A stretch of 64,000 bases of DNA. Origin: Nocardioides sp. JQ2195 (GTDB lineage: Bacteria > Actinomycetota > Actinomycetes > Propionibacteriales > Nocardioidaceae). Position 1 is the first letter of the stretch, and each line of letters begins with the position of its first letter. Shown piece by piece: positions 12,592-36,840 of this stretch. The notes below the pieces were generated by a model. The model was given only the letters and a program-made list of their open reading frames with translations. It made no database searches and was not told the origin of the DNA. Made by a program: the position numbers and the translations under genes. The DNA is taken from positions 1,674,001 through 1,738,000 of the forward strand of contig NZ_CP050902.1 of the NCBI RefSeq assembly GCF_012272695.1, given 5' to 3'.

Positions 12592-13548
12592 ATGTGGGAC
12601 ACCGAGGTGACTGACCTCCTCGACGCGCTGAACGCCGGCTTCCCCCGGGTGGAGGAGATGACGGGCGCCCAGGCACGCGAGTCCGTGGCAGCGCGCCGCG
12701 CACCGGTGACGAACCTCGACGACGTGGAGCGGGTGGAGGACGTGCAGATCCCGTCCGCCGCGGGTCCGGTCGGAGCGCGGATCTATCACCCGCACGGATC
12801 CGTGGACCACTCTCGACCGCTGGTTGTCTTCTTCCACGGCGGCGGGTTCGTCTTCTGCAGCGTCGAGACCCATGACGGGTTCGCTCGCGCGATGTCGCGT
12901 GCGACCGGCGCGGTGGTGATCTCCGTCGACTACCGCCTCGCTCCCGAGCACAAGGCCCCCGCTGCCGCGGAGGACGCCCTCGCGGCCACCGTCTGGGCGG
13001 CGGACAACGCGCTCGCTCTCGGTGCCGATCCCCGCCGCCTCGTGGTGATGGGGGACAGTGCCGGCGGCAACCTGGCTGCGGTGGTGCCGCTGATGGCGCG
13101 GGAGCGAGGAGGGCCCGCGATCGCGGCCCAGGTGCTGGCCTATCCGATGATCGATCCCGCATGTTCCTCGCCCAGCATGCAGCAGTACGCCACTGGGCAC
13201 TTCAACACACTCGCCGCGACGCGCTGGTACTGGGAGCAGTACCTCCCCGACGGGACCGGGACACCCACGCACCACGTCGCTCCACTGGAGTCGACGAGCC
13301 TGGCCGGGCTGCCCCCGGCGATCGTGGTGACCGCCCAACGAGACCCGCTCGCCGGCGACGGGCGCCGGTACGCAGAGGCGCTGCGCGCCTCCGGGGTGCC
13401 GGTCGTGCACCGCGAGTACGCCGGACTGTTCCACGGCTTCCTGACCATCCTGGGGTTGGGCGCGGCGAAGTCCGCCCGCGACCTGCTCTGGCACGACCTC
13501 GCGACGCTCGTCGCCGCAGGTGAGACACCGACACGAGGAGAACGATGA
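12592..13548 (+). CDS. Alpha/beta hydrolase, hormone-sensitive-lipase family
   Basis: Serine esterase of 318 aa. The oxyanion-hole motif HGGGF is at 82-86, nucleophile elbow GDSAGG at 154-159 with Ser156, the acid in AQRDPL, and the His in LFHGF near 295. SVDYRLAPEHKAP is the HSL-family hallmark. ATG 12592 is preceded by GGAAGGAAG at good spacing. The stop overlaps the BVMO start (ATGATG). Such pairs hydrolyse the ester or lactone produced by Baeyer-Villiger oxidation. Confidence 0.9.
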   Translation: MWDTEVTDLLDALNAGFPRVEEMTGAQARESVAARRAPVTNLDDVERVEDVQIPSAAGPVGARIYHPHGSVDHSRPLVVFFHGGGFVFCSVETHDGFARAMSRATGAVVISVDYRLAPEHKAPAAAEDALAATVWAADNALALGADPRRLVVMGDSAGGNLAAVVPLMARERGGPAIAAQVLAYPMIDPACSSPSMQQYATGHFNTLAATRWYWEQYLPDGTGTPTHHVAPLESTSLAGLPPAIVVTAQRDPLAGDGRRYAEALRASGVPVVHREYAGLFHGFLTILGLGAAKSARDLLWHDLATLVAAGETPTRGER

Positions 13549-15185
13549 TGACCACCCAGAACCCGCCCCGTCCCCAGCCCGAGCCGGGCGCGATCCGCGA
13601 CATCGTGGTGATCGGCGCCGGATTCGCCGGGCTCTATGCCGTGCACGCCTCTCGCCGCGCGGGCCGGGACGTGCTCTGCCTCGAGGCCGGCCAGGGGGTG
13701 GGAGGGACGTGGTACTTCAACCGTTACCCCGGCGCCCGTTGCGACGTGGAGAGCATCGACTACTCCTACTCGTTCGACGACGAGCTGCAGCAGGAGTGGA
13801 GGTGGACCGAACGCTACGCCACCCAGCCAGAGATCCTCGCCTACATCGAGCACGTCGCGGAGCGCTTCGACCTGCTTCGCGACGTCCGGCTGGGAACCCG
13901 GGTGGCCCAGGCGCACTTCGACGAGTCCGAGGTGCTCTGGCGACTCCGCACCGATGCCGGGGAAGACATCCTCGCCCGCCACCTGGTCCTCGCCACCGGG
14001 TCCCTGTCGATCCCGAACCTCCCTGACATCGCCGGGGTCTCGGACTTCGAGGGGGAGGTGCTGCACACCGCCCAGTGGCCGGAGGAGCCGCCGACGTTCG
14101 AGGGCAAGAGGGTGGGCGTGATCGGAACCGGTTCCTCGGGGATCCAGTCCGTGCCGGTGCTCGCGGAGCAGGCGGCACACCTCACCGTCTTCCAGCGCAC
14201 CGCGAACTACAGCGTCCCGGCCCTGAACCGACCGCTGACGGATGCGGACCAGCTCCGGATCCAGGCCGAGTATCCCGAGCGCCGTCGCAAGTCACGAGGG
14301 AGCGGCGGCGGCTCGCCCCATGTCGCCCATCCCCGCAAGGCCGCGGACTGCGAACCCGAGGAGCGCCGCGCTGCTCTCGAGAGGGGCTGGACGACCGGAG
14401 GCGTGCTGTTCGGAAAGACCTTCCCCGACCAGTACACCGACATCGGGTCCAACGACTTCGCCCGCGAGTTCGCCGAGGAGAAGATCCGAGCCCGGGTCAA
14501 GGACCCCGCCGTCGCTGATCGGCTGATTCCCACCGGGCAGCCTCTCGGTGCGAAACGGATCTGCACCGACTCCGGTTACTACGAGACCTTCAACCGTGAC
14601 AACGTCGAGCTCGTCGACCTGCGTACCGAGCCGATCACGACCTTCACGGGCTGGGGGATCAAGACGGCTGCGTCGTCCTACGAGCTCGACGTGGTGGTCT
14701 TCGCGACTGGTTTCGACGCGCTGACCGGTGCCCTGTCCCGGATCGACCTGCGCGGTACCGGTGGTGTGCGGATCCAGGACGCCTGGAAGGACGGACCCCA
14801 CACCTACCTCGGCATCCAGGTGCCGGGCTTCCCGAACATGTACCTGGTCAACGGCGCCGGGTCACCCGGAGTGCTGGCGAACATGGTGATGCACGCGGAA
14901 CTGCAGTTCGACTGGATCCTCGCGATGATCGAGGAGGCCACGGCCCGAGGTGCCGACCAGATCGAAGCGCGTGCGGATGCCGCGGACAAGTGGACCGCGC
15001 ACGTCGACGAAGCGGCAGCGGGCACAGTCTTCGTCCGCGCCGACTCGTGGTACCTCGGCTCGAACATCGAGGGCAAGCCGCGCAAGTTCATGCTCTACAC
15101 CGGCGGGATGGGTGCCTACCTGGGCATCTGTGCCGAGGTTGCCGAGAACGGCTACGAGGGGTTCGTGCTGACGAGCAGGTCATGA
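13545..15185 (+). CDS. Flavin-containing Baeyer-Villiger monooxygenase
   Basis: 546 aa, FAD- and NADPH-dependent. First Rossmann motif GAGFAG is at 24-29; GVGGTWYFNRYPGARCD (51-67) is the cyclohexanone-monooxygenase-type segment; the BVMO fingerprint FEGEVLHTAQWP is at 168-179; the second Rossmann GTGSSG is at 194-199. All fingerprint residues are intact. The enzyme inserts oxygen next to a ketone, giving an ester or lactone for the coupled hydrolase. Substrate could be a cyclic or steroidal ketone; sequence alone does not decide. Confidence 0.92.
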   Translation: MMTTQNPPRPQPEPGAIRDIVVIGAGFAGLYAVHASRRAGRDVLCLEAGQGVGGTWYFNRYPGARCDVESIDYSYSFDDELQQEWRWTERYATQPEILAYIEHVAERFDLLRDVRLGTRVAQAHFDESEVLWRLRTDAGEDILARHLVLATGSLSIPNLPDIAGVSDFEGEVLHTAQWPEEPPTFEGKRVGVIGTGSSGIQSVPVLAEQAAHLTVFQRTANYSVPALNRPLTDADQLRIQAEYPERRRKSRGSGGGSPHVAHPRKAADCEPEERRAALERGWTTGGVLFGKTFPDQYTDIGSNDFAREFAEEKIRARVKDPAVADRLIPTGQPLGAKRICTDSGYYETFNRDNVELVDLRTEPITTFTGWGIKTAASSYELDVVVFATGFDALTGALSRIDLRGTGGVRIQDAWKDGPHTYLGIQVPGFPNMYLVNGAGSPGVLANMVMHAELQFDWILAMIEEATARGADQIEARADAADKWTAHVDEAAAGTVFVRADSWYLGSNIEGKPRKFMLYTGGMGAYLGICAEVAENGYEGFVLTSRS

Positions 15186-18034: not shown

Positions 18035-18163
18035 TCAGGGTCGGACGGGTCCGCTCCCTAGGGTCGAACCGACCGTTCCCGCACTCGCGTGCGGCTGCTG
18101 AGAAGAGGTTCCCGTGCCCTCCCTGCCCGTAGATTCTCGGACCGCTCATGAAGGGCTCGACCG

Positions 18164-18934
18164 ATGACCACCACGACGCCCGTGCTCGTCACCGGCGCCG
18201 CTTCTGGGATCGGTGAGGCCTGTGCGTCGGCACTGGCCGAGTCGGGCCGGCCGGTGGTCCTGTGGGACCTCGACCACGAGGCAGTCACCGCGGCTGCGGA
18301 GGCCTTGGGTGAGAAGTACGGCGTGACCACGTGCGGACAGGCGGTCGACGTCCGTCGGGTCGAGGGTTTCGACCAAGCACTGGCACAGGCCCGCTCCGTG
18401 GTCGGACCTCTCGGCGGCCTGGTGAACTGTGCCGGGGTCGTCGACTCGACGCCGATGACGGACCTGACCATCGAGGGTTGGCAGCGGGTGATCGACGTCA
18501 ACCTGACGGCGTACGGATTCCTGGTGGCGGCCCTCGCCGACGACTTCCGGGCGCAGCCGGGGTCGGCAGTGGTGGCCATCGGCTCGATCAACGCCACGAT
18601 CGGGCAGGGCGCGATCCCGGCGTACACGGCCTCCAAGGGCGGCGTGCTGAGCCTGACCAGATCGCTGGCGGCCCAGTTGGGCCCGGACGGGGTGCGTGTC
18701 AACACCGTCTGCCCCGGCTACATCGCCACCCCCATGCTCAAGCGCAGCCTCGCCGACGAACGTCGAGCCGCGAACATGTCCGCCCTGACCATGCTCAAGC
18801 AGGTGGGGCAGCCGCACGAGGTCGCCGCCGTGGTGCGCTTCCTCCTCAGCGACGAGGCGAGCTTCGTCACCGGCGCGACGATCAACGTCGACGGTGGCGT
18901 GCTGGCCAACGATGCGATGGCGGCGCTGGCATGA
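18164..18934 (+). CDS. SDR family oxidoreductase at the head of the sulfatase operon
   Basis: 256 aa. TGAASGIGEAC (about 9-19), NCAGVVDSTPM, SINATIGQGAIPAYTASKGG with Tyr-x3-Lys, and the C-terminal FVTGATINVDGG are all present. AAGGG precedes the ATG. It overlaps the sulfatase start by ATGA, so it belongs to the same transcript, and probably oxidises the alcohol exposed when the sulfate ester is removed or a related hydroxyl. Confidence 0.88.
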   Translation: MTTTTPVLVTGAASGIGEACASALAESGRPVVLWDLDHEAVTAAAEALGEKYGVTTCGQAVDVRRVEGFDQALAQARSVVGPLGGLVNCAGVVDSTPMTDLTIEGWQRVIDVNLTAYGFLVAALADDFRAQPGSAVVAIGSINATIGQGAIPAYTASKGGVLSLTRSLAAQLGPDGVRVNTVCPGYIATPMLKRSLADERRAANMSALTMLKQVGQPHEVAAVVRFLLSDEASFVTGATINVDGGVLANDAMAALA

Positions 18935-21135
18935 CGCGTCCCAACGTGGTGATGATCGTCCTCGACGACACCGGCTTCGCCCAGCTGGGGTGCTTCGGCT
19001 CGGACATCAGCACCCCGAACATCGACCGCCTGGCCGGGGACGGCCTGCGCTACAACAGGTTCCACGTGACGGCCCTGTGCTCGCCGACCCGCGCGTCCCT
19101 GCTGACCGGTCGCAATCACCACCGGGTCGGCATGGGCTACCTGACGGACATCCCCACACCTGATCCGGGATACACCTGCGCCATCCCGCCTGCCGCGGGA
19201 ACCCTGCCGGCGGTGCTCAAGCAGGCCGGCTACAGCACGTTCGCCGCGGGCAAGTGGCATCTCGCCCCGCGCTGGGAGGTCAATCCGGCCGGCCCCTACG
19301 ACCGGTGGCCACTCGGCCTCGGCTTCGAGCGCTACTACGGGTTCCTCAGCGCCGAGACCAGCCAGCGCACCCCCACGCTCGTGCGGGACAACTCCTACGT
19401 CCCCCAGCCGCGGACCCCTGATGAGGGCTACCACCTCATGGAGGACCTCACCGATGAGGCGATCGGGTTCATCCGGGACCAGCAGCAGAACACCCCTGAG
19501 CGCCCCTTCTTCCTCTACTACGCCGCGAGTGCCATGCACGCGCCGATCCAGGCGCCCGAGGAGTGGGTACGCCGTTACGAGGGCGCCTTCGACCAGGGCT
19601 GGGACGAGTGGCGCGACGCGATCGTGACGCGCCAGAAGGAGCTCGGGGTCGTTCCCGAGGACGCCGATGCGACACCGCGACCTCCGTGGGTCCGTCCGTG
19701 GGAGGAGCTGAGTGAGGGGGAGCGTCGGGTCACGGCACGAAGCATGGAGATCTTCGCGGCGTACCTGAGCTACACGGACGCCCAGATCGGCCGGCTCATC
19801 GACCATCTCCGCGAGACCGACACGCTGGACAACACCATCGTGATGCTGATCTCGGACAACGGCACGAGTGCTGAAGGGGGCCCCGACGGCTCCTTCAACT
19901 ACCACGGCCTGCACCGCGACCGGGCGGCCAACCGCGAGCTCACCTTCGCCAACCTCGACGAGATGGCCGGCGACCACTCCTACATGCAGTACGCCTGGCC
20001 CTGGGCCTGGGCGGGCAACACCCCGTTCTGGCTCTGGAAGCGATTCACAGCGCTGGGCGGCGTACGCACCCCGCTGATCGTGCACTGGCCCGACGGCGTG
20101 GGCACGCCGGGGGAGGTGCGCGACCAGTTCTGTCACGTCTCCGACCTGATGCCGACCGTGCTGGAGGCGGCAGGTGTGCCGGTGCCGGAGCGGCTCAACG
20201 GTGTCGAGCAGATGTCGCTCGACGGCGCCAGCATCCTCGACTCGTTCCTCGCTCCGGAGGTGGCCGCACCGCGCGAGACGCAGTACTTCGAGTGCGCCGG
20301 CTCACGGTCGCTCTATCACCGCGGTTGGAAGATCCGTACGGACCACGTCGGCCCGACGCCCCTTCTCGAGCGGGAGCTGATCCCGGGAAGCCATGAGTAC
20401 GACGAGGACCACTGGGCGTTGTTCCACCTCGACACGGACTACGCGGAGACCACGGACCTGTCCGCGAGCCACCCCGAGCTGGTCCGCGAGATGGTCCAGA
20501 TGTGGTGGACCGAGGCGGGTCGCAACCAGGTGCTGCCACTCAACGACGGCTACACCGGCCGACCCCAGATGGAGCGACCGGCCGGGCACCGTCAGCCGGC
20601 GCGGATGTCCTACCGCCCCGGCCCTGGTGCGGTGTCGGAGTTCATGCACCCCGTGCTCACCGAGGGGTTCACGATGACCGCGCACCTCGAGGTGCCCGAC
20701 GAGCCGTCGAACGGCATCATTGCCGCCATCGGCGACTGGACCCAGGGCTTGGCGTGGTACCTGCGGGACGGGCACATGCTGGTCTCCGCCAACTACGCCG
20801 GAGTCGGCCACCGCACCCGGTCCGCCGTGCCGCTCGCCCCGGGGCGACAGGAGGTCCGGCTCACCTACCGGCTCCGTGAGGGTGGCGGCACGTTCGCACT
20901 CCACCAGCCGGGCGAGGACGCGGTCGAGCTGGACGTCGACGGACCCCTGCCCGTGCGTTGGCAGATCGGCGGTCCGGGCCTGCGCATCGGCTTCGACGCG
21001 GGGTTCCCGGTCGACGACGGCTACGCACCGCCGTACGCCATGGAGCCGGGGGTGCTGCAACGGGTGGACGTCGAGAGTGGTGCTGCCGGCCTCCTCGAGC
21101 CCGACGACTCCGACCTGGCACGAGTCCACGAATGA
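18931..21135 (+). CDS. Type I (formylglycine-dependent) sulfatase with C-terminal beta domain
   Basis: 734 aa. MIVLDDTGF near the N-terminus provides the metal-binding Asp pair, and CSPTRAS (Cys50) is the exact C-x-P-x-R formylglycine signature. GRNHHRVGMGYL, AAGKWHLAPR (Lys/His) and VMLISDNGTSAEGG (Asp/Asn metal ligands) complete the active site. Residues beyond about 560 form a beta-rich extra domain, making this larger than a simple arylsulfatase. No signal peptide is seen, so it should act in the cytosol, unlike many secreted arylsulfatases. Cys50 must be oxidised by a formylglycine-generating enzyme; one is encoded at 41385. Confidence 0.92.
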   Translation: MTRPNVVMIVLDDTGFAQLGCFGSDISTPNIDRLAGDGLRYNRFHVTALCSPTRASLLTGRNHHRVGMGYLTDIPTPDPGYTCAIPPAAGTLPAVLKQAGYSTFAAGKWHLAPRWEVNPAGPYDRWPLGLGFERYYGFLSAETSQRTPTLVRDNSYVPQPRTPDEGYHLMEDLTDEAIGFIRDQQQNTPERPFFLYYAASAMHAPIQAPEEWVRRYEGAFDQGWDEWRDAIVTRQKELGVVPEDADATPRPPWVRPWEELSEGERRVTARSMEIFAAYLSYTDAQIGRLIDHLRETDTLDNTIVMLISDNGTSAEGGPDGSFNYHGLHRDRAANRELTFANLDEMAGDHSYMQYAWPWAWAGNTPFWLWKRFTALGGVRTPLIVHWPDGVGTPGEVRDQFCHVSDLMPTVLEAAGVPVPERLNGVEQMSLDGASILDSFLAPEVAAPRETQYFECAGSRSLYHRGWKIRTDHVGPTPLLERELIPGSHEYDEDHWALFHLDTDYAETTDLSASHPELVREMVQMWWTEAGRNQVLPLNDGYTGRPQMERPAGHRQPARMSYRPGPGAVSEFMHPVLTEGFTMTAHLEVPDEPSNGIIAAIGDWTQGLAWYLRDGHMLVSANYAGVGHRTRSAVPLAPGRQEVRLTYRLREGGGTFALHQPGEDAVELDVDGPLPVRWQIGGPGLRIGFDAGFPVDDGYAPPYAMEPGVLQRVDVESGAAGLLEPDDSDLARVHE

Positions 21136-21172
21136 CGAAGAACCTCACAGCTCAACCACGAAGGCAGGAACG

Positions 21173-22843
21173 ATGAAACTGGGTGCGGCGATCGCCGAGA
21201 TCCTCAGGGCCGAAGGCATCGAGATGGTGTGCGGCTACCCGCTGAACTACGTGTTCGAGTACGCCGCCGACGCCGACATCCGACCCGTCATTGCGCGGGC
21301 CGAGCGCACGGGTGGGCACATGGCCGACGCGATCTCGCGTGTGACCAGTGGCAAGCAGATCGGGGTGTACGCAACCCAGCACGGACCGGGCATCGAGAAC
21401 GGCATGGGTGCCGTCGCACAGGCCTACGGGGAGTCGGTGCCGATCCTGGTGCTGCCGATGGGCTATCGCCGCGACGAGGCGCACATCGCGCCGAACTTCA
21501 ACTCCACGATCAGCCTGCGCTCGATCGCCAAGTCGGTCGAGCCGCTCAACGACGCCAACCAGGTCGCCGCCGTCTTCCGGCGTGCGTTCAGCCGGCTGCG
21601 CAACGGCCGTGGGGGACCGGTGGTCGTCGAGATTCCGCGCGACATGTGGTTCGAGGACGTGACGGTGCCGCTGGACTACCGACCGGTGATCACCACCCGT
21701 TCGGGCCCCGATCCTGAGGCCGTACGACGCGCGGCGGAGCTGATCGTGGCTGCCGAGCGGCCCGTCATCTACGCCGGCCAGGGCGTGCACTACGCCGAGG
21801 CGTGGCCGCAGCTGAAGCAGCTGGCGGAGAAGCTTGCGATCCCGGTGACCACCAGCCTCCAGGGCAAGAGCGCGTTCCCCGAGGACCACCCGCTGTCGCT
21901 AGGATCGTGTGGCCGGGCCGTGCCGCGCACGGTGCACCACTTCCTCACGGAGTCGGACCTGATCCTCGGTGTCGGCTGCAGCTTCACGCCGTCCGACTTC
22001 GCCACCGCGATGCCCACCGGCAAGACCGTCATCCACGCCACCCTCGACCCGTCGCACCTCGACACCGTGGTGCAGGCTGACGTCGGGTTGATCGGCGACG
22101 CGGCACTCACGCTGGATGCGCTGCTGGCCGCCGTCGACGCGCTGGTCGAAGGTGAGAGGGACGCGACGTCCGTCGTGGCCGAGATCAAGGACGTGTACGA
22201 CGACTGGATCGCCGAGTGGATGCCGATCCTGACCTCGGACGAGAACCCGATGACGGCGTACCGGGTGATCTGGGAGCTGATCGCGGCGACGGATCCGGCG
22301 AACACGATCATCACGCACGATGCCGGCTCGCCGCGGGACCAGCTCTCCCCGTTCTGGAAGAGCACCACGCCGCTGAGCTACCTCGGCTGGGGCAAGACCA
22401 CCCAGCTCGGCTACGGACTCGGCCTGGTGATGGGTGCGAAGCTCGTGCACCCCGAGAAGTTGTGCGTGAACCTGTGGGGCGACGCGGCCATCGGATTCAC
22501 CGGCCTCGAGCTCGAGACCTGTGTCCGCGAGCGGCTTCCGGTGCTCTCGATCCTGTTCAACAACTCCTACATGGCGATGGAGACCAACGCGATGGGGTTG
22601 TCGCAGTCGAAGTACCAGACCATGGAGATCTCGGGCGACTACACGGCGATGGCCAAGTCCCTGGGCCTGTACGCCGAGAAGGTCACCGACCCCGCCGACA
22701 TCGCCGATGCGATCAAGCGGGGCATCGAGCAGACCGAGGCCGGTCGTCCCGTGCTCCTGGAGTTCATCACCTCCCGGGAGCTGCGGGTCTCCACCCACGG
22801 CGGCGACTCCTACATGTCGCCCGTGCCGGACAACTTCCGATGA
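21173..22843 (+). CDS. ThDP-dependent acetolactate-synthase-like enzyme
   Basis: 556 aa. The ATG at 21173 follows AAGGCAGGA. The N-terminal domain begins KLGAAIAEILRAEGIEMVCGYP, with the ThDP-activating Glu likely in ARAERTGGHMADA. The C-terminal ThDP-Mg motif is present as GDAAIGFTGLELE...LPVLSILFNNSYM, a GDA variant of the common GDG. The family covers acetolactate synthase, decarboxylases and C-C lyases, so the reaction is open; a 2-oxo-acid or acyloin substrate is likely. It follows the sulfatase by 37 bases in the same operon. Confidence 0.87.
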   Translation: MKLGAAIAEILRAEGIEMVCGYPLNYVFEYAADADIRPVIARAERTGGHMADAISRVTSGKQIGVYATQHGPGIENGMGAVAQAYGESVPILVLPMGYRRDEAHIAPNFNSTISLRSIAKSVEPLNDANQVAAVFRRAFSRLRNGRGGPVVVEIPRDMWFEDVTVPLDYRPVITTRSGPDPEAVRRAAELIVAAERPVIYAGQGVHYAEAWPQLKQLAEKLAIPVTTSLQGKSAFPEDHPLSLGSCGRAVPRTVHHFLTESDLILGVGCSFTPSDFATAMPTGKTVIHATLDPSHLDTVVQADVGLIGDAALTLDALLAAVDALVEGERDATSVVAEIKDVYDDWIAEWMPILTSDENPMTAYRVIWELIAATDPANTIITHDAGSPRDQLSPFWKSTTPLSYLGWGKTTQLGYGLGLVMGAKLVHPEKLCVNLWGDAAIGFTGLELETCVRERLPVLSILFNNSYMAMETNAMGLSQSKYQTMEISGDYTAMAKSLGLYAEKVTDPADIADAIKRGIEQTEAGRPVLLEFITSRELRVSTHGGDSYMSPVPDNFR

Positions 22844-22860
22844 GACAAGGACTCGACCAC

Positions 22861-23754
22861 ATGACGACCGCACCCATGGCAGGCCCCACCACAAGGCTGG
22901 ACAGGGCCCGACCCACCTCCGTGCAGGATCTCCGGGTCCGCGCCGACTGGCTGCGGATCGAGGTGATCAACATGATCGACAAGGCCGGCCTGGGCCACTA
23001 CTCCAGCACGTTCTCGTGCGCGGAGATCCTCTCCGTCCTCTACTACCGGTCGATGCGCCTGGACCCCTCTGCTCCTGACTGGGCGGACCGCGACCGCTTC
23101 CTGCTGGGCAAGGGGCATGCGGCAGTCGGCCTGTGGCCGATCCTGAGTGACCTCGGCTACTTCCCTCGTGAGGACCTGGACACCTTCGGCTACATCGGAA
23201 GCAACCTGGGTGATCACCCGGACATGCGCAAGGCGGCCGGCGTGGACTTCAGCTCCGGCTCTCTGGGTCACAACCTCTCCGTCGGCCTCGGCATGGCGAT
23301 GGCGGCCCGGCTGCGCGGTTCCGACCACCGCACGTTCGTGCTGACCGGTGACGGCGAGATCAACGAGGGTCAGGTCTGGGAGGCGGCCATGGCCGCAAGT
23401 CACTACCAGCTGGGCAATCTGGTCGCGATCGTCGACGCCAACGGCTTCATCGGCAGCGGTCCGACCGCGGAGCTGATGAGCATCGAGCCACTGGCCGACC
23501 GGTTCGCCGCGTTCGGCTGGCACGTCATCGAGCTCGACGGCCACGACGTCGAGACGCTGGTGGCCACCTTCGACGACCTGCCAGCACCGGAGTCCGGGCG
23601 TCCGGTGTGCGTCGTGGCCCGCACGCAGAAGGGCAAGGGGGTCTCACTGATGGAAGAGGCTCCACGGGCATGGCACGTCGGTTGCCTGACCCCCGAACAG
23701 CGAGATGAAGCGATCGCCGAGATCAGCGCGAGGATGCAGGAGGTGTCCGCATGA
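22861..23754 (+). CDS. Transketolase-like protein, N-terminal half
   Basis: 297 aa, equal to the ThDP pyrophosphate-binding half of transketolase. I chose ATG 22861, which has AAGGA nine bases upstream; an ATG at 22840 overlapping the previous stop would add seven residues. Visible: GHYSSTFSCAEIL, LGKGHAAVGLWPIL, SLGHNLSVGLGMA, and the GDGEINEGQVWEAAMAASHYQLGNLVAIVDAN ThDP motif (read as GDG at about 165 and N about 28 residues later). The second half is the next gene, overlapping by ATGA, so the pair forms a split transketolase. Confidence 0.9.
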   Translation: MTTAPMAGPTTRLDRARPTSVQDLRVRADWLRIEVINMIDKAGLGHYSSTFSCAEILSVLYYRSMRLDPSAPDWADRDRFLLGKGHAAVGLWPILSDLGYFPREDLDTFGYIGSNLGDHPDMRKAAGVDFSSGSLGHNLSVGLGMAMAARLRGSDHRTFVLTGDGEINEGQVWEAAMAASHYQLGNLVAIVDANGFIGSGPTAELMSIEPLADRFAAFGWHVIELDGHDVETLVATFDDLPAPESGRPVCVVARTQKGKGVSLMEEAPRAWHVGCLTPEQRDEAIAEISARMQEVSA

Positions 23755-24737
23755 CCAGCACCACCACGGACCGGTCGGCCGCCATGGAGGACGTGTTCTC
23801 CGACGAGGGCCAGGCGTCATCACTGAACCTGCTCGGTCGGGCCATGGCCGAGCTCGCCGACCGCCACGACGACGTCGTGGTGATCTCCGCAGACCTGGGC
23901 TCCGCGCTGTCCGAGCTGCGCGAGCGCCACCCCAGCCGGTACGTCGAGCTGGGCATCGCCGAGACGAACACGATCTCGGTTGCGGCCGGCCTGGCCGCCT
24001 CCGGGTTCCGACCGTACGTCGTGGCCTTCGCGCCCTTCGGGATGATCAAGTGCGCCGAGCAGATCCGCACCGACCTGGCTGCCACGATGATGCCCGTCAC
24101 GCTGGTGACCCGCCTGTCGGGGCTGGCCATGGGCTACTTCGGGGCCAGCCACCACGCCGTGGAAGATCTTGCCATTGCCCGCTCCATCACCAACCTGACG
24201 GTGATGACGCCGGCCGACAACCACGCCACGCTGGGTTTGCTCGAGGCCAGTCACGAGTCAGCGGGACCGGTGCTGCTCAGGGTGAGCGAGGCCACTGCGC
24301 CGGTCTACTCGTCGGTGCCGGACCTGACCCGTGGCAGGTTCGTGCAGGTGCGTGAGGGCACGGACCTGACCATCATCGGAACCGGTGCCGGCGTCGGGTG
24401 CGCACTGGGAGCCGCTGAGGCACTCCAGGAGCAGGGGATCAGTGTCGCAGTCCTCGACGCGGCGTACATCAAGCCGTTCGACGCGGCGGCCGTCCTGGAA
24501 GCGGCCGCATCGACCCGGGCGATCCTCACCGTCGAGGAGCACAGTGAGGTCGGCGGGCTCGGTGCCGCCGTCGCCGAGGTGCTCGGACGCAACGGCGTCG
24601 CGACTCGACTGGGCAGCATCGCACTGCCGGACGCCGATCTCGAGGTGGGGGTTCCGGCCGAGCTGCTGGACCACTACGGGATCACGGTCGAGGGCGTGAC
24701 CCGGAAGGCGCAGGCGCTGCTCACGACGGGCGGGTAG
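23751..24737 (+). CDS. Transketolase-like protein, C-terminal half
   Basis: 328 aa covering the pyrimidine-binding and C-terminal domains. DLGSALSELRERHPSRYVELGIAE includes the catalytic Glu (GIAE) that activates ThDP, and FAPFGMIKCAEQIRTDLA follows. The last domain carries GTGAGVGCALGAAEAL and VEEHSEVGGLG. ATGA overlap with the N-half gene indicates a heteromeric enzyme. Split transketolases often work on unusual ketoses, including in apiose and sulfosugar pathways; the substrate here is unknown. Its 3' end overlaps the convergent TetR gene by 17 bases. Confidence 0.9.
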   Translation: MTSTTTDRSAAMEDVFSDEGQASSLNLLGRAMAELADRHDDVVVISADLGSALSELRERHPSRYVELGIAETNTISVAAGLAASGFRPYVVAFAPFGMIKCAEQIRTDLAATMMPVTLVTRLSGLAMGYFGASHHAVEDLAIARSITNLTVMTPADNHATLGLLEASHESAGPVLLRVSEATAPVYSSVPDLTRGRFVQVREGTDLTIIGTGAGVGCALGAAEALQEQGISVAVLDAAYIKPFDAAAVLEAAASTRAILTVEEHSEVGGLGAAVAEVLGRNGVATRLGSIALPDADLEVGVPAELLDHYGITVEGVTRKAQALLTTGG

Positions 24738-25377
24738 TCGTTCCTTCGGAGGCGGATGGTTCGGGGGCGTCCTCGCTCGACGGAGCGAGGACACCCCGGC
24801 GTACGAGGGAGTAGACGGCCAGCGTCAGCTCCTCGTCGGACTGGTCGTCGAGGCCCGTGATGTCCTTGACGAATGATCCGAACAGGCCCCAGCCCAGTGC
24901 CGCGCTGGTCAGCGCCGCCACCTGCACCCGGGAGTCGACGTGTTCGTCCCCCGGGGCCACGACGTCGTCCGCGATCCGGCGGCTGAGCTCGGCCATGGCG
25001 GGGGAGCGGCCCAGGATCGCCGCCGGGTCACGGCCCTCGAGGATGCTGCGGGCCACCATTCGCACGTACTCCGAGCTCTTGGGGCGCATGAGGAGACCGA
25101 TCGCGTCGTCGGTGCTCTCGGCCCGGCTGAACCGCTCGGCATAGTCCTCGGAGGACCTCTGGAGGACGAGCTTGAGGAGGTCGTCCTTCGTGCCGACGTA
25201 CTGATAGATCAGGCCGTAGTTGACGTCGGCGGCCCGGGCCACCTCCCGCAGCGACACCGCGGCCGGGCCGCGACTGGCGAAGAGCGGTCGAGCTGCCTCG
25301 ACGAGGCGCTGGACCACGCGTGCGCGCGCCTGCGACTCCTCGCCGGACGCAGCCTTGCCGGAGGGGGATTCAGCCAT
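24721..25377 (-). CDS. TetR family transcriptional regulator
   Basis: 218 aa. The helix-turn-helix lies at about 35-65: VSLREVARAADVNYGLIYQYVGTKDDLL, with the recognition helix around NYGLIYQYVG, clearly unlike the KstR2-type helix in this window. The C-terminal ligand-binding domain contains SPAMAELSRRIADD. It is convergent with the sulfatase-transketolase operon and lies just ahead of the dioxygenase-amidohydrolase genes on the other side, so it may control either group. Ligand unknown. Confidence 0.88.
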   Translation of the reverse strand: MAESPSGKAASGEESQARARVVQRLVEAARPLFASRGPAAVSLREVARAADVNYGLIYQYVGTKDDLLKLVLQRSSEDYAERFSRAESTDDAIGLLMRPKSSEYVRMVARSILEGRDPAAILGRSPAMAELSRRIADDVVAPGDEHVDSRVQVAALTSAALGWGLFGSFVKDITGLDDQSDEELTLAVYSLVRRGVLAPSSEDAPEPSASEGTTTRPS

Positions 25378-25404: not shown

Positions 25405-26493
25405 TCACACGGTGGCCCGTTGCTGCTTCGCGGTGACCTCTGCCATGTACTTCTCCGGCATCTCCATGAACGGCGTGCGGAACCTGGCCCACTGGGGCAG
25501 GTCGTCCATCGAGTAGACGTCCTGCTGGTTGGCCGGACGACGCGGCCACGACGGGATGTTCACCCACAACCGCATCAGGTGGCGACGCCGGTTGACGTCG
25601 CGGTGGTCCTCGTACGGCGTACGGCCGTGGACGATCAGTCGATTGTTGAGGAACTGGATGTCGCCCGGAGCGATGTCCATGTCGAGGTAGAACTCGGGAG
25701 AGGCCGAGAGCTCGCAGAACAGGTCCAGTGCGGCTTCCTGTTCGGGGGTGATGTCGAAGTGTCCGGCCCGGGCGGCGTCGCGGGTCTGGGCGACGTGGAC
25801 GCACGAGCTGAACACGCCATCGGTCCTGGTGAACAGGGCGACGTTGTCCGACGTGACGATCTTGCCGTCGCCGCGCTCGGCGTCCATCTGCCCGCGCATC
25901 ACCGGCATGCCGGTGTACAGCACCCGGGCCAGCTCGGGATGGGTCTCGACCATGCGGTCGTGGACCGCGGCGGCACTGGCGATCCGGCTGGCCCCGCCGG
26001 CCTTCGCCGCGCGCAGGCACAGCAGTGAGACGACGTCATGGCCGTCGCAGTGCATGTTCATCGACTGTGCCGACCGGTAGCCGCGGACCTGCTCGTCGAA
26101 CAGGTCGGCCACGTTCAGCACGTGCCCGAGGATCTCGCCGTTGCCCGACTGGGGAATGACCTCACCCAGGTGGGCCCCGAGGCCGCAGTAGATCCTGGCC
26201 AGGTCGTCATCGCTGTACGCCTCGCGAGAGAGCCCGCGAATCAGGACGAAGCCGCGACCGGCCCGGAGCTCGTCGCGGAGGCGGGAGAGGAAGTCGCCGA
26301 CCCGGGGCAACGGGAACCTGTCCGGGGTGATCTCGGTCAGGTCCAGCTCGCCGTGGCCCTTGAGGATCGTGAGGGCCGCGTCGATCTCGGCCAGCTCGTC
26401 CGTGGACAGTTGCCAGAGGCCGTCCGTGCGGTAGTCCAGCGTGCTGCCGAGCCAAGCAGAACGGCCGCCGACGGCCTTGAGCGTGTCAGTCAT
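25405..26493 (-). CDS. TauD/TfdA-family Fe(II)/2-oxoglutarate dioxygenase
   Basis: 362 aa. The iron-binding HxD is His148-Cys149-Asp150 in MHCDGHD, the distal His is in LIVHGRTPYED at about 280, and an Arg-rich RRRHLMRLW follows, fitting the 2-oxoglutarate site. RGLSREAYSDDDL and GAHLGEVIPQS are typical of the fold. Known relatives hydroxylate taurine, sulfate esters, betaines and other small acids; nothing here singles out taurine. It follows the amidohydrolase by 24 bases on the same strand, so the two form an operon. Confidence 0.88.
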   Translation of the reverse strand: MTDTLKAVGGRSAWLGSTLDYRTDGLWQLSTDELAEIDAALTILKGHGELDLTEITPDRFPLPRVGDFLSRLRDELRAGRGFVLIRGLSREAYSDDDLARIYCGLGAHLGEVIPQSGNGEILGHVLNVADLFDEQVRGYRSAQSMNMHCDGHDVVSLLCLRAAKAGGASRIASAAAVHDRMVETHPELARVLYTGMPVMRGQMDAERGDGKIVTSDNVALFTRTDGVFSSCVHVAQTRDAARAGHFDITPEQEAALDLFCELSASPEFYLDMDIAPGDIQFLNNRLIVHGRTPYEDHRDVNRRRHLMRLWVNIPSWPRRPANQQDVYSMDDLPQWARFRTPFMEMPEKYMAEVTAKQQRATV

Positions 26494-26517: not shown

Positions 26518-28257
26518 TCAGACGGGGACGTGGGAGGGCGCGGGTTGGGAACCTCGGACGAGGCGGCCCGGCAGGGCGCCGGTGTGCTGCCCGTTCCGCG
26601 TCACGACGGTCCCGCGGACGACAGTGGCGGTGTAGCCGCTCGCGTCCTGCATCAGGCGCCGGCCGCCGGCGGGCAGGTCGCGGACCACCCGTGGTCGTCC
26701 CAGGCCGACCCCGTCGTGGTCGATGACATTGAGGTCGGCCCGGTAGCCGGGCGCAATCACGCCTCGGTCGTGCAGCCCGAGCATCTCGGCGGAGCGCTTG
26801 GTCATCAGGTGGATCAGGTAGGGCAGCTCGAGCCGCTCGCCCTGGTGGCGGTCGCGGCCCCAGTGGGCGAGCAGGTGGGTGTAGATGCTGCCGTCGCAGA
26901 TGACGCCGAGGTGGGCACCACCGTCGCCCAGGCCGGGGACGGCATGATCGTTGAGCAACATCTCCCGGCAGGGTTCGAGGGTGAAGTCAGCGAAGTTCGA
27001 GAAGGCCAGGTAGAGGATGTTGCTCCCGTCCTGGTCGAGCAGCTTGTCGTAGGCGAGACTCTCGCTGGAGACGCCGAGGCGCCGGGCCTGCGCGCCGATG
27101 CTGCTGTCCTTGGCCGGCTCGTAGTCGAAGTCCGCGCCCATCTCGTAGAGCTGGTCGAAGTCGCGCACGCGCATCCCGATCTCCATGTCGGGGTCGGGGT
27201 CGTTCACCTCGCCCAGGATGCGCTCCTTGATCTCGGGGCGACGGAGCTCGCGGACCCGCTCGGCCAACGGCAGGTCGGCAAGTCCGAGATAGGTGGGCGT
27301 CGAGTAGAAGGGGCTCAGGGTCAGCTCGAGGCCCAGCAGCACTCCCAACGGCCGCGGCAGGATCTGCATCGTGCCGGTGCCGCCGGAGGCGTTGTGCGCG
27401 TCGAACTTGTCCAGGATGGTGCGCCAGATCCGTGGGTTGCCGTGGCTCTGGACCAGCGACATGCTGAAGGGCCGGTTGTTCTCCTTGGCCTGGCGCAGGC
27501 CCATGTCGAGCACTTGTTCCCAGTCGTCGTCGTACTCGATGACGAACTGGATGAGGCCCGTGCCGGCTCGATCGAGCGCGGCGGCCAGCCCTGCGTACTC
27601 TTCCTCGGTCGCGGCCAGGGTCGGGGTGAGCTGGCCATCGCTGGAGCGGTGGAACATGGTCTGCGACGTGCCGAACCCGAAGGCGCCAGCGCGGATCGAC
27701 TCCTCGAGGAGGTCGCCCATCTGCTGGATCTCATCGGCAGTGGCAGGAGCGCGGGAATAGGCTCGCTCGCCCATGACGTAGGTCCGCAGGGCAGCGTGCG
27801 GGACGTAGCTGCACACGTCGGCGTCGAACTCGCGCGTGTCGAGGAAGTCGAGATATTCGGGGTAGGTGGTCCACTGCCAGTCGACGCCCTCCTTGAGCAC
27901 GACGTTGGGGATGTCCTCGACGCCCTCCATGAGCCTGATGAGGATGTCGCGGTCCTCGGGCCTGCACGGCGCGAACCCCACCCCGCAGTTGCCCATGACG
28001 ACAGTGGTCACTCCATGGTTGGTCGACGGCACCAAGCGGTTCTCCCACGTCGTCTGACCGTCGTAGTGGGTGTGCACATCGACGAAGCCCGGCGTGACCA
28101 GCTGGCCGCGGGCGTCGATCTCCTCGCGGGCGGCGCCCACGACGGTGCCGACCTCGACGATGACGCCGTCGCGCACGGCGACATCCGCCGGTCGAGGGGG
28201 GTTGCCGGAGCCGTCGATGACGGTGCCGTTGCGGACCACCAGATCCCAGTCGGTCAT
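26518..28257 (-). CDS. D-aminoacylase-like amidohydrolase
   Basis: 579 aa metal-dependent hydrolase of the N-acyl-D-amino-acid deacylase group. [11 protein letters not shown] near the start, [12 protein letters not shown] (HTH at 62-64, metal ligands), [13 protein letters not shown], and the late [15 protein letters not shown] (metal Asp region) are all visible. C-terminal [15 protein letters not shown] is the family's closing beta-sandwich. It should cleave an amide bond, perhaps of a conjugate, and is cotranscribed with the TauD-type dioxygenase. A weak KstR2-like site lies 73 bases upstream of its start. Confidence 0.88.
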
Positions 28258-29640: not shown

Positions 29641-31209
29641 ATGAGAGTCGGGAAGAAAACAACTCGCAGGGTGAAGGGAGCCCTTGTCGCGGTCGTGGCC
29701 GGAGCCATGCTCCTGGCCGGGTGCGGTGGGGTTGACAACGCAGCCGCCTCCGGCGAGGCCGACCCCGACGCCACGCTGCGAATCATGTACGGCATGGCCG
29801 CCTCCTTGGACCCGGTCGATGCGGCGGAGCCCGGGCAGTTGACCTTCTCGACCTGGCCGGTCTACGACACCTTGCTGACCGTCGGCGCGGAATCCACCTA
29901 CGAGCCGATGCTGGCCACGAAGTGGGAGTTCTCCGCGGGCGGGAAGTCATTGGATCTCACCCTGCGTGACGGGGTGACCTTCAGCGACGGCACTCCCTTT
30001 GACGCGGAGGCCGTGAAGGCCAATCTCGACCGCTACCTGGCTGCTGACAAGTCAGGGGTGCAACTGGCGCTGGAGTCGGTGGCGGGCGTCGAGGTCACCG
30101 GGGACCTCGCGGTGAGGGTGAACCTGAAACGGCCAACGACCGCGATCCTCGCAGCACTCGCGAGCAACCTCGGCGGCATCATGATCTCACCGAAGGCGCT
30201 CTCCTCCGGCGATCTTGCCAGCAAGCCGGTGGGGACGGGCGCGTACAAGATCGAGTCCTTCAAGCCCGGTGAGCAGGCCGTCTACGTCCGGCGCACGGAC
30301 GAGGGCGCGAAGTGGGACCCGAAGACCGGGAACGTGGCGAAGGTGGTCATCAACCGGATCGCCGGTGACGATGCCAAGATCAACGCGCTCAAGAGTGGTC
30401 AGATCGACCTCACCACGTTGACCGGTGACCCGACGGTCGTCAGCGAAGGACAGGCCCAGACCGTCGTCCTGGACACCGCGCTGAACCTGGTCGGCATGTA
30501 CTTCAACCCGAAGGTCAAGCCGCTCGACGACGTGAAGGTGCGACAGGCGATCAACATGGCCATCGACCGTGAGGGAATCGTCGCGGCCTTCGGGCCGAAC
30601 AACGCGACCCGCGTCCAGCCGTGGCCCAAGGGCCTGCCCGGCTTCGAGGAATCGCGTGAGGGCCAGTACGAGTTCGACCCGGAGGCTGCGAAGGACCTGC
30701 TGGCCTCGGCCGGCTATCCGGACGGGTTCACGATTCCCGGTGAGTTCCTGACCAACAACAGCGCCAACATCGACAAGATCGGTGAGGTCGTGCAGGCCAA
30801 CCTGGCTGACATCGGGATCAAGATCGAGTTGCGCTCGATGGACATCCTGTCCCAGGTCACCGGGTACGCCCAGGGTGACTACGCCGGCCAGTTCATGTAC
30901 ATGTCGCTGCCGTCCATCGACAGCTCCTCATGGCTGCAGCGCCTGTTCGCCAACCCCATCTGGAGCCCGGCCGGAACCCCGCCGGAGCTGACGAAGCTGA
31001 TGCAGGGTGTCGAGGACCCGAATCTCAGCGACGATGAGCGTGCAGCCAAGGTCTCCGAGGCCGTGCAGTATGCGACGGACAACGCGCTCTACGCACCGCT
31101 GTTGCAGGGCGTCGGTGGATTGGCTGCCTCGCACAAGGTCAAGGGGCTCGACGATCTCCCGGCTGCAGGTGGTGTGGCCAACCTGCGCTACCTCAGCATG
31201 ACCAAGTAG
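29641..31209 (+). CDS. ABC transporter substrate-binding lipoprotein, peptide/nickel (family 5) type
   Basis: 522 aa. The N-terminus is a lipoprotein signal: basic KKTTRRVK, hydrophobic stretch, and lipobox LLAGC with Cys28. The mature part has the SBP family 5 order: SLDPVDAAEPGQL, LTLRDGVTFSDGTPFDAEAVKANLDR, VGTGAYKIESFKPGEQ, VRQAINMAIDREGI, YDP-like FDPEAAKDLLASAGYPDGF. It should bind a peptide or other small ligand outside the cell. No permease or ATPase genes adjoin it; the nearest ATPases are those at 1-1771. A very strong terminator follows, so it is probably monocistronic. Confidence 0.9.
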   Translation: MRVGKKTTRRVKGALVAVVAGAMLLAGCGGVDNAAASGEADPDATLRIMYGMAASLDPVDAAEPGQLTFSTWPVYDTLLTVGAESTYEPMLATKWEFSAGGKSLDLTLRDGVTFSDGTPFDAEAVKANLDRYLAADKSGVQLALESVAGVEVTGDLAVRVNLKRPTTAILAALASNLGGIMISPKALSSGDLASKPVGTGAYKIESFKPGEQAVYVRRTDEGAKWDPKTGNVAKVVINRIAGDDAKINALKSGQIDLTTLTGDPTVVSEGQAQTVVLDTALNLVGMYFNPKVKPLDDVKVRQAINMAIDREGIVAAFGPNNATRVQPWPKGLPGFEESREGQYEFDPEAAKDLLASAGYPDGFTIPGEFLTNNSANIDKIGEVVQANLADIGIKIELRSMDILSQVTGYAQGDYAGQFMYMSLPSIDSSSWLQRLFANPIWSPAGTPPELTKLMQGVEDPNLSDDERAAKVSEAVQYATDNALYAPLLQGVGGLAASHKVKGLDDLPAAGGVANLRYLSMTK

Positions 31210-35184: not shown

Positions 35185-36840
35185 ATGACCTGCAACGGAA
35201 GTGACGCGATCGCGGCCGCACTCGAAGCCGTGGGTGTGGACACGGTCTTCAGCGTGCCGAGTGCGCACAACCTGCCGATCCTCGACGCCATCGAACGCCG
35301 GGGCGGCATCCGGGTGATCGGCTGCCGCCACGAGCAGGGCGTCGCCCATGCAGCCGACGCCCACGCCCGCACGACGGGCGCCCTCGCCGTGGGCGTGGTC
35401 AGTGGAGGGCCCGGCACGGCCAACACCATGGGCGGTCTCTACGAAGCGCACTTCGCGTCCTCGCCCGTCCTCCTGATCACCAGTCAGGTCGAGAGCTCCC
35501 ACCTCGGCAGGGGACGTGGTTACGTCCACGAGGCGGAGAGCCAGGCGGCGATGCTCTCCACGGTCTGCCGCGAGGTGGTCACCGCGACGTCCGCCGACGA
35601 TCTCGCCGAGACGGTGCTGCGACTGCGTCGGGTGGCGTGCACCGGGCGACCCCGCCCGGTCGCGCTGGAGGTGCCGCTCGACCTCCAGACCGCGATCGTC
35701 CCTCCGCCCGACGCTGCCGCCCTGGTGGCGAGCGCACGCGTCCCGCTGCGACGTGGTGCGCCCGATGCCGGCCGGCTCGATGACGCGGCCCGGCTCCTCG
35801 CCTCCGCCGAGCGTCCGGTGATCTGGGCCGGCGGTGGTGTGATCCGCTCTGGCGCGGCCGATGAGCTGCTCGAACTCGCCCGGCGCTGGCACGCACCCGT
35901 GCTGACCAGTCGGGAGGGGCGTGGCGCGATCAACGAGCTCGACGGCCTGAGCATCGGCTCCTACGCCACGTTGCGGTCGATGCGCGACTTCCTCGCCACG
36001 TGTGACGTGATGCTCGCGGTCGGCACCCGGTTCCAGATGTACCCGACCGCGCAGTGGCAGCTGCCCATTCCCGAGGCACTCGTCCACCTCGACACCGATC
36101 CGACAGTCATCGGCCGGAGCTATCCCGCCGCCGTCAGCCTGTGTGCGGACGCGCGGCTCGGGCTGGCCGGCCTCACGGACCTGCTCAGCGAGCCCCCGCC
36201 GGAGGTCGCCACCAGTCGCAGTGGCCACCTCAAGGCCGGCCAGGAGACGGCGGGTGTCGCTCGCGACCTGGTCGCCCAGCAGGCTGGCCCGGACCACCTG
36301 CGCATCAGCGCAACGATCGCGCGACACCGACCCGCCGACGGCGTGCTCGTCTGCGACGCGACCGTGCCGGCGTACGTCTGGGGGGATCGGCTGGTGCCGA
36401 TCGTCGAGCCGCGTACGTCGATCCGCTCCGCCGCCGCGGGCATAGGGCCGGGCATGGCGATGGCGCTCGGCGCGGCGACTGCGTCGTCCTCCCACACCGT
36501 GCTCCTCCAGGGCGACGGCGGGTTCATGCTCGGGATCGCGGAGCTGGCCAGCGCTGTGCAGTCGAACGCCCGGATCGTGGTGTGCCTCTTCGACGACGGC
36601 GGCTACGGCATGCTGCGCGACATCGACGCCCTGAACGGCGGTGGCTCGAACGGTGGGTTCGACCTGTCCACCCCTGACTTCTTCGCGGTCGCCACGGCCT
36701 TCGGGGCGCGCACCGCCCGCGTGGCAGGCCCTGACGAGTTCGAGTCGGAGTTCGTGGCCGCCCTCGCCCACGACGGCCCGACGCTGCTCCACGTCGACAT
36801 GGGTGCGCTGGCCCCGCTTCGGCGGACGTGGGGGACATGA
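35185..36840 (+). CDS. ThDP-dependent decarboxylase/synthase-like enzyme
   Basis: 551 aa from ATG 35185 (GGTGG upstream). It has the ThDP-activating Glu in IGCRHEQGVAHAAD, SGGPGTANTMGGL, and the Mg-ThDP motif as LQGDGGFMLGIAEL...VCLFDDGGYGML. The last Asn of the usual motif is replaced by Asp (DDGGYG). The family includes acetolactate synthase and benzoylformate decarboxylase. With a flavin alpha-hydroxyacid dehydrogenase at 38962, a decarboxylase acting on a 2-oxo-acid is plausible. It is coupled to the MFS gene by ATGA. Confidence 0.84.
   Translation: MTCNGSDAIAAALEAVGVDTVFSVPSAHNLPILDAIERRGGIRVIGCRHEQGVAHAADAHARTTGALAVGVVSGGPGTANTMGGLYEAHFASSPVLLITSQVESSHLGRGRGYVHEAESQAAMLSTVCREVVTATSADDLAETVLRLRRVACTGRPRPVALEVPLDLQTAIVPPPDAAALVASARVPLRRGAPDAGRLDDAARLLASAERPVIWAGGGVIRSGAADELLELARRWHAPVLTSREGRGAINELDGLSIGSYATLRSMRDFLATCDVMLAVGTRFQMYPTAQWQLPIPEALVHLDTDPTVIGRSYPAAVSLCADARLGLAGLTDLLSEPPPEVATSRSGHLKAGQETAGVARDLVAQQAGPDHLRISATIARHRPADGVLVCDATVPAYVWGDRLVPIVEPRTSIRSAAAGIGPGMAMALGAATASSSHTVLLQGDGGFMLGIAELASAVQSNARIVVCLFDDGGYGMLRDIDALNGGGSNGGFDLSTPDFFAVATAFGARTARVAGPDEFESEFVAALAHDGPTLLHVDMGALAPLRRTWGT

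Follow-up and report, generated by a model that had tools for sequence, protein, structure and literature searches.

A sulfatase and split transketolase gene block in a steroid catabolic island of Nocardioides sp. JQ2195 with a possible role in corticoid side-chain removal

Five plus-strand genes at positions 18164-24737 of a 64,000-nucleotide stretch of the Nocardioides sp. JQ2195 genome (NZ_CP050902.1, positions 1,674,001 to 1,738,000, or G000:C1:1674001-1738000 in our genome set; hereafter the window) encode a short-chain dehydrogenase/reductase (SDR), a cytosolic sulfatase, a thiamine diphosphate (ThDP)-dependent enzyme, and the N- and C-terminal chains of a split transketolase (TK-N and TK-C). 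From the gene content, protein families, synteny, and active-site residues established in this work, we infer every substrate and the order of the steps, and tentatively propose, at somewhat less than an even chance, that the block removes sulfate and then the C20-C21 side chain from corticoid-type C21 steroids. Among the single readings considered, the likeliest takes the transketolase (TK) for an aerobic side-chain desmolase, although it too falls a little short of even. The sequence evidence supports the steroid setting of the block well.

The gene block and its steroid catabolic context

The block comprises the genes for an SDR oxidoreductase (18164-18934, 256 aa; PF13561, 204 bits), a PAS-like cytosolic type I (formylglycine) sulfatase (18931-21135, 734 aa; PF00884, 209 bits), an acetolactate-synthase-like ThDP enzyme (21173-22843, 556 aa; NCBIfam NF004807), TK-N (22861-23754, 297 aa; PF00456, 147 bits), and TK-C (23751-24737, 328 aa; PF02779/PF02780). 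Their location and families agree with a preliminary description of this DNA. The ATGA links by which that description had joined the genes are present as 4-nt overlaps at the SDR/sulfatase and TK-N/TK-C junctions, but the sulfatase and ThDP genes are separated by a 37-nt gap and the ThDP and TK-N genes by a 17-nt gap (-4, +37, +17, and -4 nt in the 5' to 3' direction). With the junctions corrected in this way, the five-gene arrangement is real. The start of the ThDP gene is uncertain: the identical database protein P0241 has 587 aa, and the longer form would overlap the end of the sulfatase gene.

Gene calling over 222 kb of the 4.08-Mb genome revealed a catabolic island of approximately 140 kb around the block. 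Homologues of KstD, KshA, HsaC, and IpdA, taken together as the mark of 9,10-seco steroid catabolism, are all found in this island. One of its two KshA genes scored 562 bits against 4qdf and the other is 75% identical to the first, whereas the KstD-like flavoprotein (658 bits) and the HsaC-like dioxygenase (345 bits) remained below their curated cut-offs of 788 and 450 bits, respectively. A second, diverged copy of the IpdA-like CoA-transferase subunit for steroid rings C/D is encoded at 4011-4880 on the plus strand (6co6, 343 bits). Its IpdB-like partner (4877-5650, plus strand) was assigned by position and by eye, and adjoins the IpdA homologue in two other genomes described below (loci L018 and L025). 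Further KstD-, HsaA-, and FadE-like genes in the island were recognized by eye only. Two other steroid gene sets occur in the genome, one near 1.99-2.02 Mb with IpdA (61%, C1:2013106), KshA (54%), and an HsaC-like gene (46%), and one near 0.567 Mb with KshA (68%) and an HsaC-like gene (77%). Because no P450 gene was matched in the island and one lies at 2.006 Mb in the second steroid locus, a sterol side chain is disfavored as the substrate of the island.

A hydrolase-monooxygenase pair is located 3 kb upstream of the block. The predicted esterase is an alpha/beta-hydrolase (Abhydrolase_3, 12592-13548, plus strand; PF07859, 243 bits) and shares a 4-nt overlap with the start of a steroid-monooxygenase-like Baeyer-Villiger monooxygenase (BVMO) gene (13545-15185, plus strand). 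The BVMO had its best PDB match in steroid monooxygenase (4aos, 672 bits), compared to 572 bits for phenylacetone monooxygenase. According to a study on Caenibius tardaugens, the BVMO of that organism converts progesterone to testosterone acetate, and its activity on 21-hydroxyprogesterone is weak (8.7 versus 70.4 U/mg; PMC12239570). In view of this precedent and of the resemblance of the window BVMO to steroid monooxygenase, the island probably acts on steroids that bear a two-carbon side chain.

Residues 3-526 of the sulfatase align with the Pseudomonas aeruginosa arylsulfatase PAS (524 residues), which also gave the best PDB matches (4cxk/1hdh, 271 bits; human steryl-sulfatase, 79 bits). 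The protein combines a PF00884 domain with the CxPxR motif in the form CSPTR, with Cys50, and the genome encodes a formylglycine-generating enzyme (FGE), as expected for a type I sulfatase. The domain begins at residue 4, which leaves no room for a signal peptide and bears out the cytosolic location assigned earlier. The distant FGE gene mentioned in the preliminary description was likewise recovered inside the window, 17 kb downstream of the block (41493-42335, plus strand; PF03781, 291 bits); it is the single strong match in the genome (295 bits in the genome scan), the sole other frame scoring 87 and 29 bits. Ten sulfatase-family matches were found in the genome, eight of them full-length, and the stretch from 1.597 to 1.695 Mb accounts for five of the full-length ones. 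A tRNA-Ala (cgc) that ARAGORN called within the sulfatase gene (19895-19969, minus strand) is probably fortuitous.

Active site of the split transketolase and the DesAB precedent

The best solved relative of both chains is the split TK of Carboxydothermus hydrogenoformans (6yak, 258 bits for TK-N; 6yaj, 180 bits for TK-C). Comparison with the ordinary transketolase of the same genome, encoded separately at C1:1965546, indicated that the pair retains the equivalents of yeast H30, H69, H103, H263, E418, and H481, with four active-site histidines kept in TK-N. Other positions are changed: R359 to Leu, H469 to Arg, D477 to Phe, and R528 to Glu, and the S386 loop is shortened. The yeast numbering and residue roles are those we assume for the yeast enzyme, in which we take R359, S386, H469, and R528 to bind phosphate. 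Both the genome's ordinary TK and the C. hydrogenoformans TK retain the two Arg residues (359 and 528) as well as His469, and the window TK, with Leu, a shortened loop, Arg, and Glu, lacks the phosphate-binding set of a sugar-phosphate transketolase. Given the presumed roles of the retained and lost residues, the enzyme should still accept a CH2OH-CO- donor, and not a sugar phosphate. In the steroids served by such an island, this donor would be the 17,21-dihydroxy-20-keto side chain.

The preliminary description knew of no pathway with this gene set. A precedent for its transketolase does exist: two reports describe desAB of Clostridium scindens as split transketolase chains and propose a transketolation that removes the steroid side chain (PMC3735941; PMC5408610). 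The DesA protein of Propionimicrobium lymphophilum is given there as 75% identical to that of C. scindens (PMC5408610), and the mean pairwise identity of desA is stated as 78% in a further source (PMC12876203). DesAB was represented in our comparisons by locus L142 and not by any C. scindens sequence. This candidate desEAB cluster (L142:530-4269; genome G314, C14, from the window's order) contains genes for an SDR of 281 aa, TKN, TKC, and a LysR regulator, and was taken as desEAB from its gene order relative to the published layout with a 282-aa SDR (PMC5408610), not from a named sequence. In the tree, its TKC grouped at 100/100 with the chains of Vaginimicrobium and Agathobaculum desmolans.

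Several other split TK pairs were noted in the course of this comparison. One of the L142 clade is encoded in Vaginimicrobium propionicum (L100:5711-8864, genome G194) and is followed by an MFS-type transporter gene recognized by eye. Genomes G289 and G287 (L103 and L104) each have a 43-47% related pair; its neighbors, identified by eye, are a class III aminotransferase-like gene and an oligopeptide-type ABC transporter. The aminotransferase-transketolase neighborhood also occurs in L099 and L144.

Conservation and linkage across genomes

Orthologues of TK-C with at least 73% identity by BLASTP (P0001-P0021) are present among the best 120 of 987 protein-database matches, and the closest named one among these, at 90%, belongs to Nocardioides sp. 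Root151. Of the order's 391 genomes, two have a close TK orthologue: the one that contains the window, and G333 from the same genus. In G333, BVMO, SDR, sulfatase, ThDP enzyme, TK-N, and TK-C form a single run (69, 80, 91, 94, 89, and 91% protein identity, respectively), and because the same order is kept there, the order of the block is more than chance. The distance between the IpdA gene and the block is approximately 66 kb in G333 and approximately 13 kb in the window. The conservation check set by the preliminary description therefore succeeded in part: the five-gene block recurs in one further genome, but in Prescottella and Rhodococcus TK and/or ThDP genes are found close to steroid genes without a sulfatase orthologue. 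The linkage that would tie sulfatase and TK to one substrate thus comes from two genomes.

Among the matches listed, the named genomes with a close TK are Prescottella defluvii (L017), P. subtropica (L018), and Rhodococcus sp. IEGM 1379 (L025). Within 16 kb, the P. defluvii locus has genes for the ThDP enzyme (81%), a 2-hydroxyacid-oxidase-like protein (74%), the TK pair, KshA-, HsaA-, and HsaC-like proteins, and a sulfatase that is 46% identical to a paralogue in the island. In P. subtropica, IpdA is located 2.7 kb from TK. The Rhodococcus locus encodes an amidohydrolase, a TauD-family protein, the ThDP enzyme, a BVMO (55%), a second ThDP enzyme (63%), a broken TK pair, and IpdA; its N chain has a frame change and its C chain an internal loss, and full-length matches were obtained for the amidohydrolase, TauD, and ThDP genes. 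A KshA or IpdA homologue is found on the same contig as TK in all five close orthologues whose surroundings were read (G000, G333, L017, L018, and L025). The ThDP gene is present in four of the six genomes tested, and was found in neither P. subtropica nor Amycolatopsis GM8.

All five genomes with a close TK have two IpdA types, one 72-100% identical to that of the window and the other 56-61%. None of the three IpdA-bearing genomes without a close TK has both (G394, G287, and G289, with one IpdA at 61-64%); G314 has no IpdA. In P. defluvii, the 73% identical IpdA and TK are on different contigs. The two types (window:4011-6725 and G000:C1:2013106) point to a second, specialized ring C/D pathway.

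Other genes of the island

The flanking TetR-family regulator gene of the preliminary description (24721-25377, minus strand; PF00440) lies tail-to-tail with TK-C. It is followed by genes for a TauD-family dioxygenase (25405-26493, minus strand; PF02668, 112 bits) and an amidohydrolase (26518-28257, minus strand; PF07969). The TauD gene is kept beside the block in G333 (91%) and beside the ThDP gene in Rhodococcus sp. IEGM 1379 (85%), and the amidohydrolase gene belongs to the same conserved neighborhood. An oligopeptide-type ABC solute-binding protein is encoded at 29671-31209 on the plus strand (SBP_bac_5, 254 bits, with the start at 29641 in that search). The island has three more proteins of this type, recognized by eye, and such a system may import hydrophilic steroid conjugates.

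Further downstream are genes for a second ThDP enzyme of the acetolactate-synthase superfamily (35185-36840, plus strand; TPP_enzyme_N/M/C; NF005470, 458 bits, below the cut-off of 495), the 63% relative of which lies beside TK in Rhodococcus sp. IEGM 1379, and for an FMN-dependent 2-hydroxyacid dehydrogenase/oxidase-like protein (38962-40152, minus strand; NF008398, 309 bits, below the cut-off of 376), the 74% relative of which directly follows the ThDP gene in P. defluvii.

Outside the window, the region G000:C1:1595129-1652749 (L011-L013) encodes two PF14863 proteins that are candidates for SdsA1-like metallo-beta-lactamase-type alkylsulfatases (L011:4619-5950 and 18120-19412, minus strand). 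Together with a TauD protein and five type I sulfatases, of which the window contains one, the island perhaps encodes all three sulfatase classes. Four Sulfotransfer_3 proteins and a CysD/CysN-like pair (Pfam PAPS_reduct and GTP_EFTU) are encoded among the island sulfatases. Two Mce-type transport operons were recognized by eye downstream of the window at G000:C1:1746873-1770168 (L015 and L016).

Proposed pathway and alternative explanations

In the proposed route, the ABC transporter would import a steroid sulfate, the sulfate ester of which would be hydrolyzed by the cytosolic sulfatase after its maturation by FGE (41493-42335). The SDR would oxidize a steroid hydroxyl (20-OH, at C20, or another) to a keto group. 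The split TK with its bound ThDP would attack the C20 ketone in the 17,21-dihydroxy-20-keto side chain and break the C17-C20 bond, thus freeing a 17-ketosteroid, with the hydroxyacetyl unit transferred or released. Degradation of the 17-ketosteroid would proceed by the KstD/KshA/Hsa route and subsequently by IpdAB, homologues of which are encoded in the island, and 20-ketosteroids without a 17-hydroxyl would be left to the predicted esterase and BVMO. For the ThDP enzyme of the block, action on the freed two-carbon unit or on another ketol of that steroid is a guess. The general reading of the preliminary description, in which desulfation and oxidation are followed by transfer or cleavage of two-carbon units, is still the best one; what it overlooked is the steroid-gene island and the DesAB precedent.

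Several observations weigh against this proposal. One report found no growth of N. simplex on cortisone acetate (PMC7807495), although carriage of the block by that strain was not examined. Neither TK gene is intact in Rhodococcus sp. IEGM 1379 (L025:9107-10645), and P. subtropica has TK without the ThDP gene. Of the five further genomes searched, G333 alone has the sulfatase orthologue (91%), and the substrates of sulfatase and TK may therefore differ. Amycolatopsis GM8 encodes a 56% identical sulfatase, with KshA and IpdA homologues elsewhere in the genome, but only a 53% relative of TK-C and no match to the ThDP enzyme. The TK relatives at 50-62% (L019-L024), from clusters without such steroid genes, share the phosphate-site losses, which are therefore not steroid-specific. 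The window TK is 36.3% (N chain) and 35.9% (C chain) identical to that of L142; the value for P0133, the C chain from A. desmolans, is 37.6%. Among the 12 rows compared, TK-N is least like the two DesA-like ones (36-37% versus 39-82%), and TK-C is no nearer to the DesB-like rows than to other split TKs (32-45% outside its own and sister clades). With 36-38% identity and a separate branch in the tree, membership of the window TK in the DesA/DesB clade was rejected. The SDR of the block is not specially close to the desE-like SDR either, at 30.8% identity to that of L142, compared to 27-36% for other SDRs of the island; in DesAB systems the neighboring gene, desC or desE, encodes a 20-hydroxysteroid dehydrogenase.

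The best surviving alternative, which we nevertheless consider doubtful, is that TK moves two-carbon units between non-phosphorylated sugars or sugar acids, for example from a sugar set free from a steroid glycoside, and that its location in a steroid island is incidental. The nearest non-steroid relatives, with the same active-site losses, speak for this possibility, since SDR and alcohol-dehydrogenase-like genes are their neighbors in L019-L022, with an IlvD/Edd-like dehydratase gene (by eye) as a further neighbor in L020 and L022. None of the six relatives in L019-L024 has a KshA, HsaC, KstD-like, or IpdA match within the 8-21 kb examined. In contrast, the close TK clade is tied to steroid-gene homologues in each of the five placed cases, and no IlvD/Edd-like partner was seen adjoining a close-clade TK.

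It is improbable, in our estimate, that TK and/or the ThDP enzymes act on the ring system instead of the side chain. On 11-oxygenated steroids, ring B opening would leave a C9-ketone beside the C11 oxygen, and a ThDP enzyme would cleave the resulting alpha-ketol or 1,2-diketone in the manner of cyclohexane-1,2-dione hydrolase. The ThDP enzyme of the block does match this hydrolase, but with scores near those of many other enzymes. It scored 820 bits against NF004807 (PRK06154), above the curated cut-off of 607, and this model states no reaction; E44 is invariant in a 26-row alignment, and the AlphaFold2 model has a pLDDT of 89.7. That the five enzymes serve unrelated reactions as chance neighbors is similarly improbable: the sulfatase-TK adjacency in two genomes only and the many duplicated catabolic genes of a gene-rich island would allow it, but the two 4-nt overlaps, the small gaps, and the gene order retained in G333 despite rearranged surroundings argue against it.

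A more far-reaching version of the side-chain proposal, to which we assign only a small chance, is that steroid-degrading actinobacteria evolved their own TK-type steroid-17,20-desmolase, independently of gut DesAB, within an island for sulfated 11-oxygenated corticoids, where TK would cleave the ketol side chain, the two acetolactate-synthase-like ThDP enzymes would cut the ring-C 9,11-ketol or diketone, and a second IpdAB would serve the altered rings C/D. If a desmolase function is true, transketolase has been recruited twice for the same carbon-carbon bond, and sulfate removal would be linked to steroid degradation. The DesAB-type reaction has so far been described mainly from gut and urinary-tract bacteria, and the window would then represent a second, independent origin. 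The parts of the literature available to us assign no enzyme to corticoid side-chain removal in aerobic actinobacteria, and the block offers a small, expressible set of candidate enzymes. Both steroids of the cortisol type and sulfated steroids occur as hormone and drug pollutants.

Comparison with known systems

The sulfatase shares the type I family and the CxPxR motif with the PAS-type arylsulfatase of P. aeruginosa (1hdh), but has approximately 200 extra C-terminal residues and a steroid rather than aryl context. The transketolase is split into two chains like that of C. hydrogenoformans (6yak), although the latter enzyme keeps the phosphate-binding Arg residues and the window TK does not. 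Another split transketolase with an unusual substrate is SqwGH of the sulfo-TK pathway, which acts on a sulfonate sugar.

The steroid monooxygenase of Rhodococcus rhodochrous and the pdc cluster of C. tardaugens for progesterone side-chain removal resemble the window in having a BVMO among steroid genes. Monooxygenases of this type oxidize 20-ketosteroids to 17-acetates. By a search for these terms in the part of the pdc report available, no transketolase or thiamine enzyme is named for that cluster (PMC12239570), whereas the window BVMO is encoded near the TK block.

In the DesAB systems of C. scindens, Agathobaculum/Butyricicoccus desmolans, and P. lymphophilum, as in the window, adjacent genes encode the N- and C-terminal transketolase chains, with an oxidoreductase gene nearby, and removal of a hydroxyacetyl unit from a steroid is proposed for DesAB as for the window TK. 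The equivalent of D477 is absent from the A. desmolans chain P0133 as it is from the window TK. At the positions of H469, R359, and R528, however, P0133 has His, Lys, and Arg, whereas the window TK has Arg, Leu, and Glu. Cleavage of cortisol between C17 and C20, with induction by cortisol, is characteristic of DesAB. DesAB belongs to a short anaerobic biotransformation operon, in contrast to the degradative island of the window with its sulfatase, ThDP enzyme, and nearby BVMO. We read the window TK as an aerobic analogue of DesAB that may act in the same manner.

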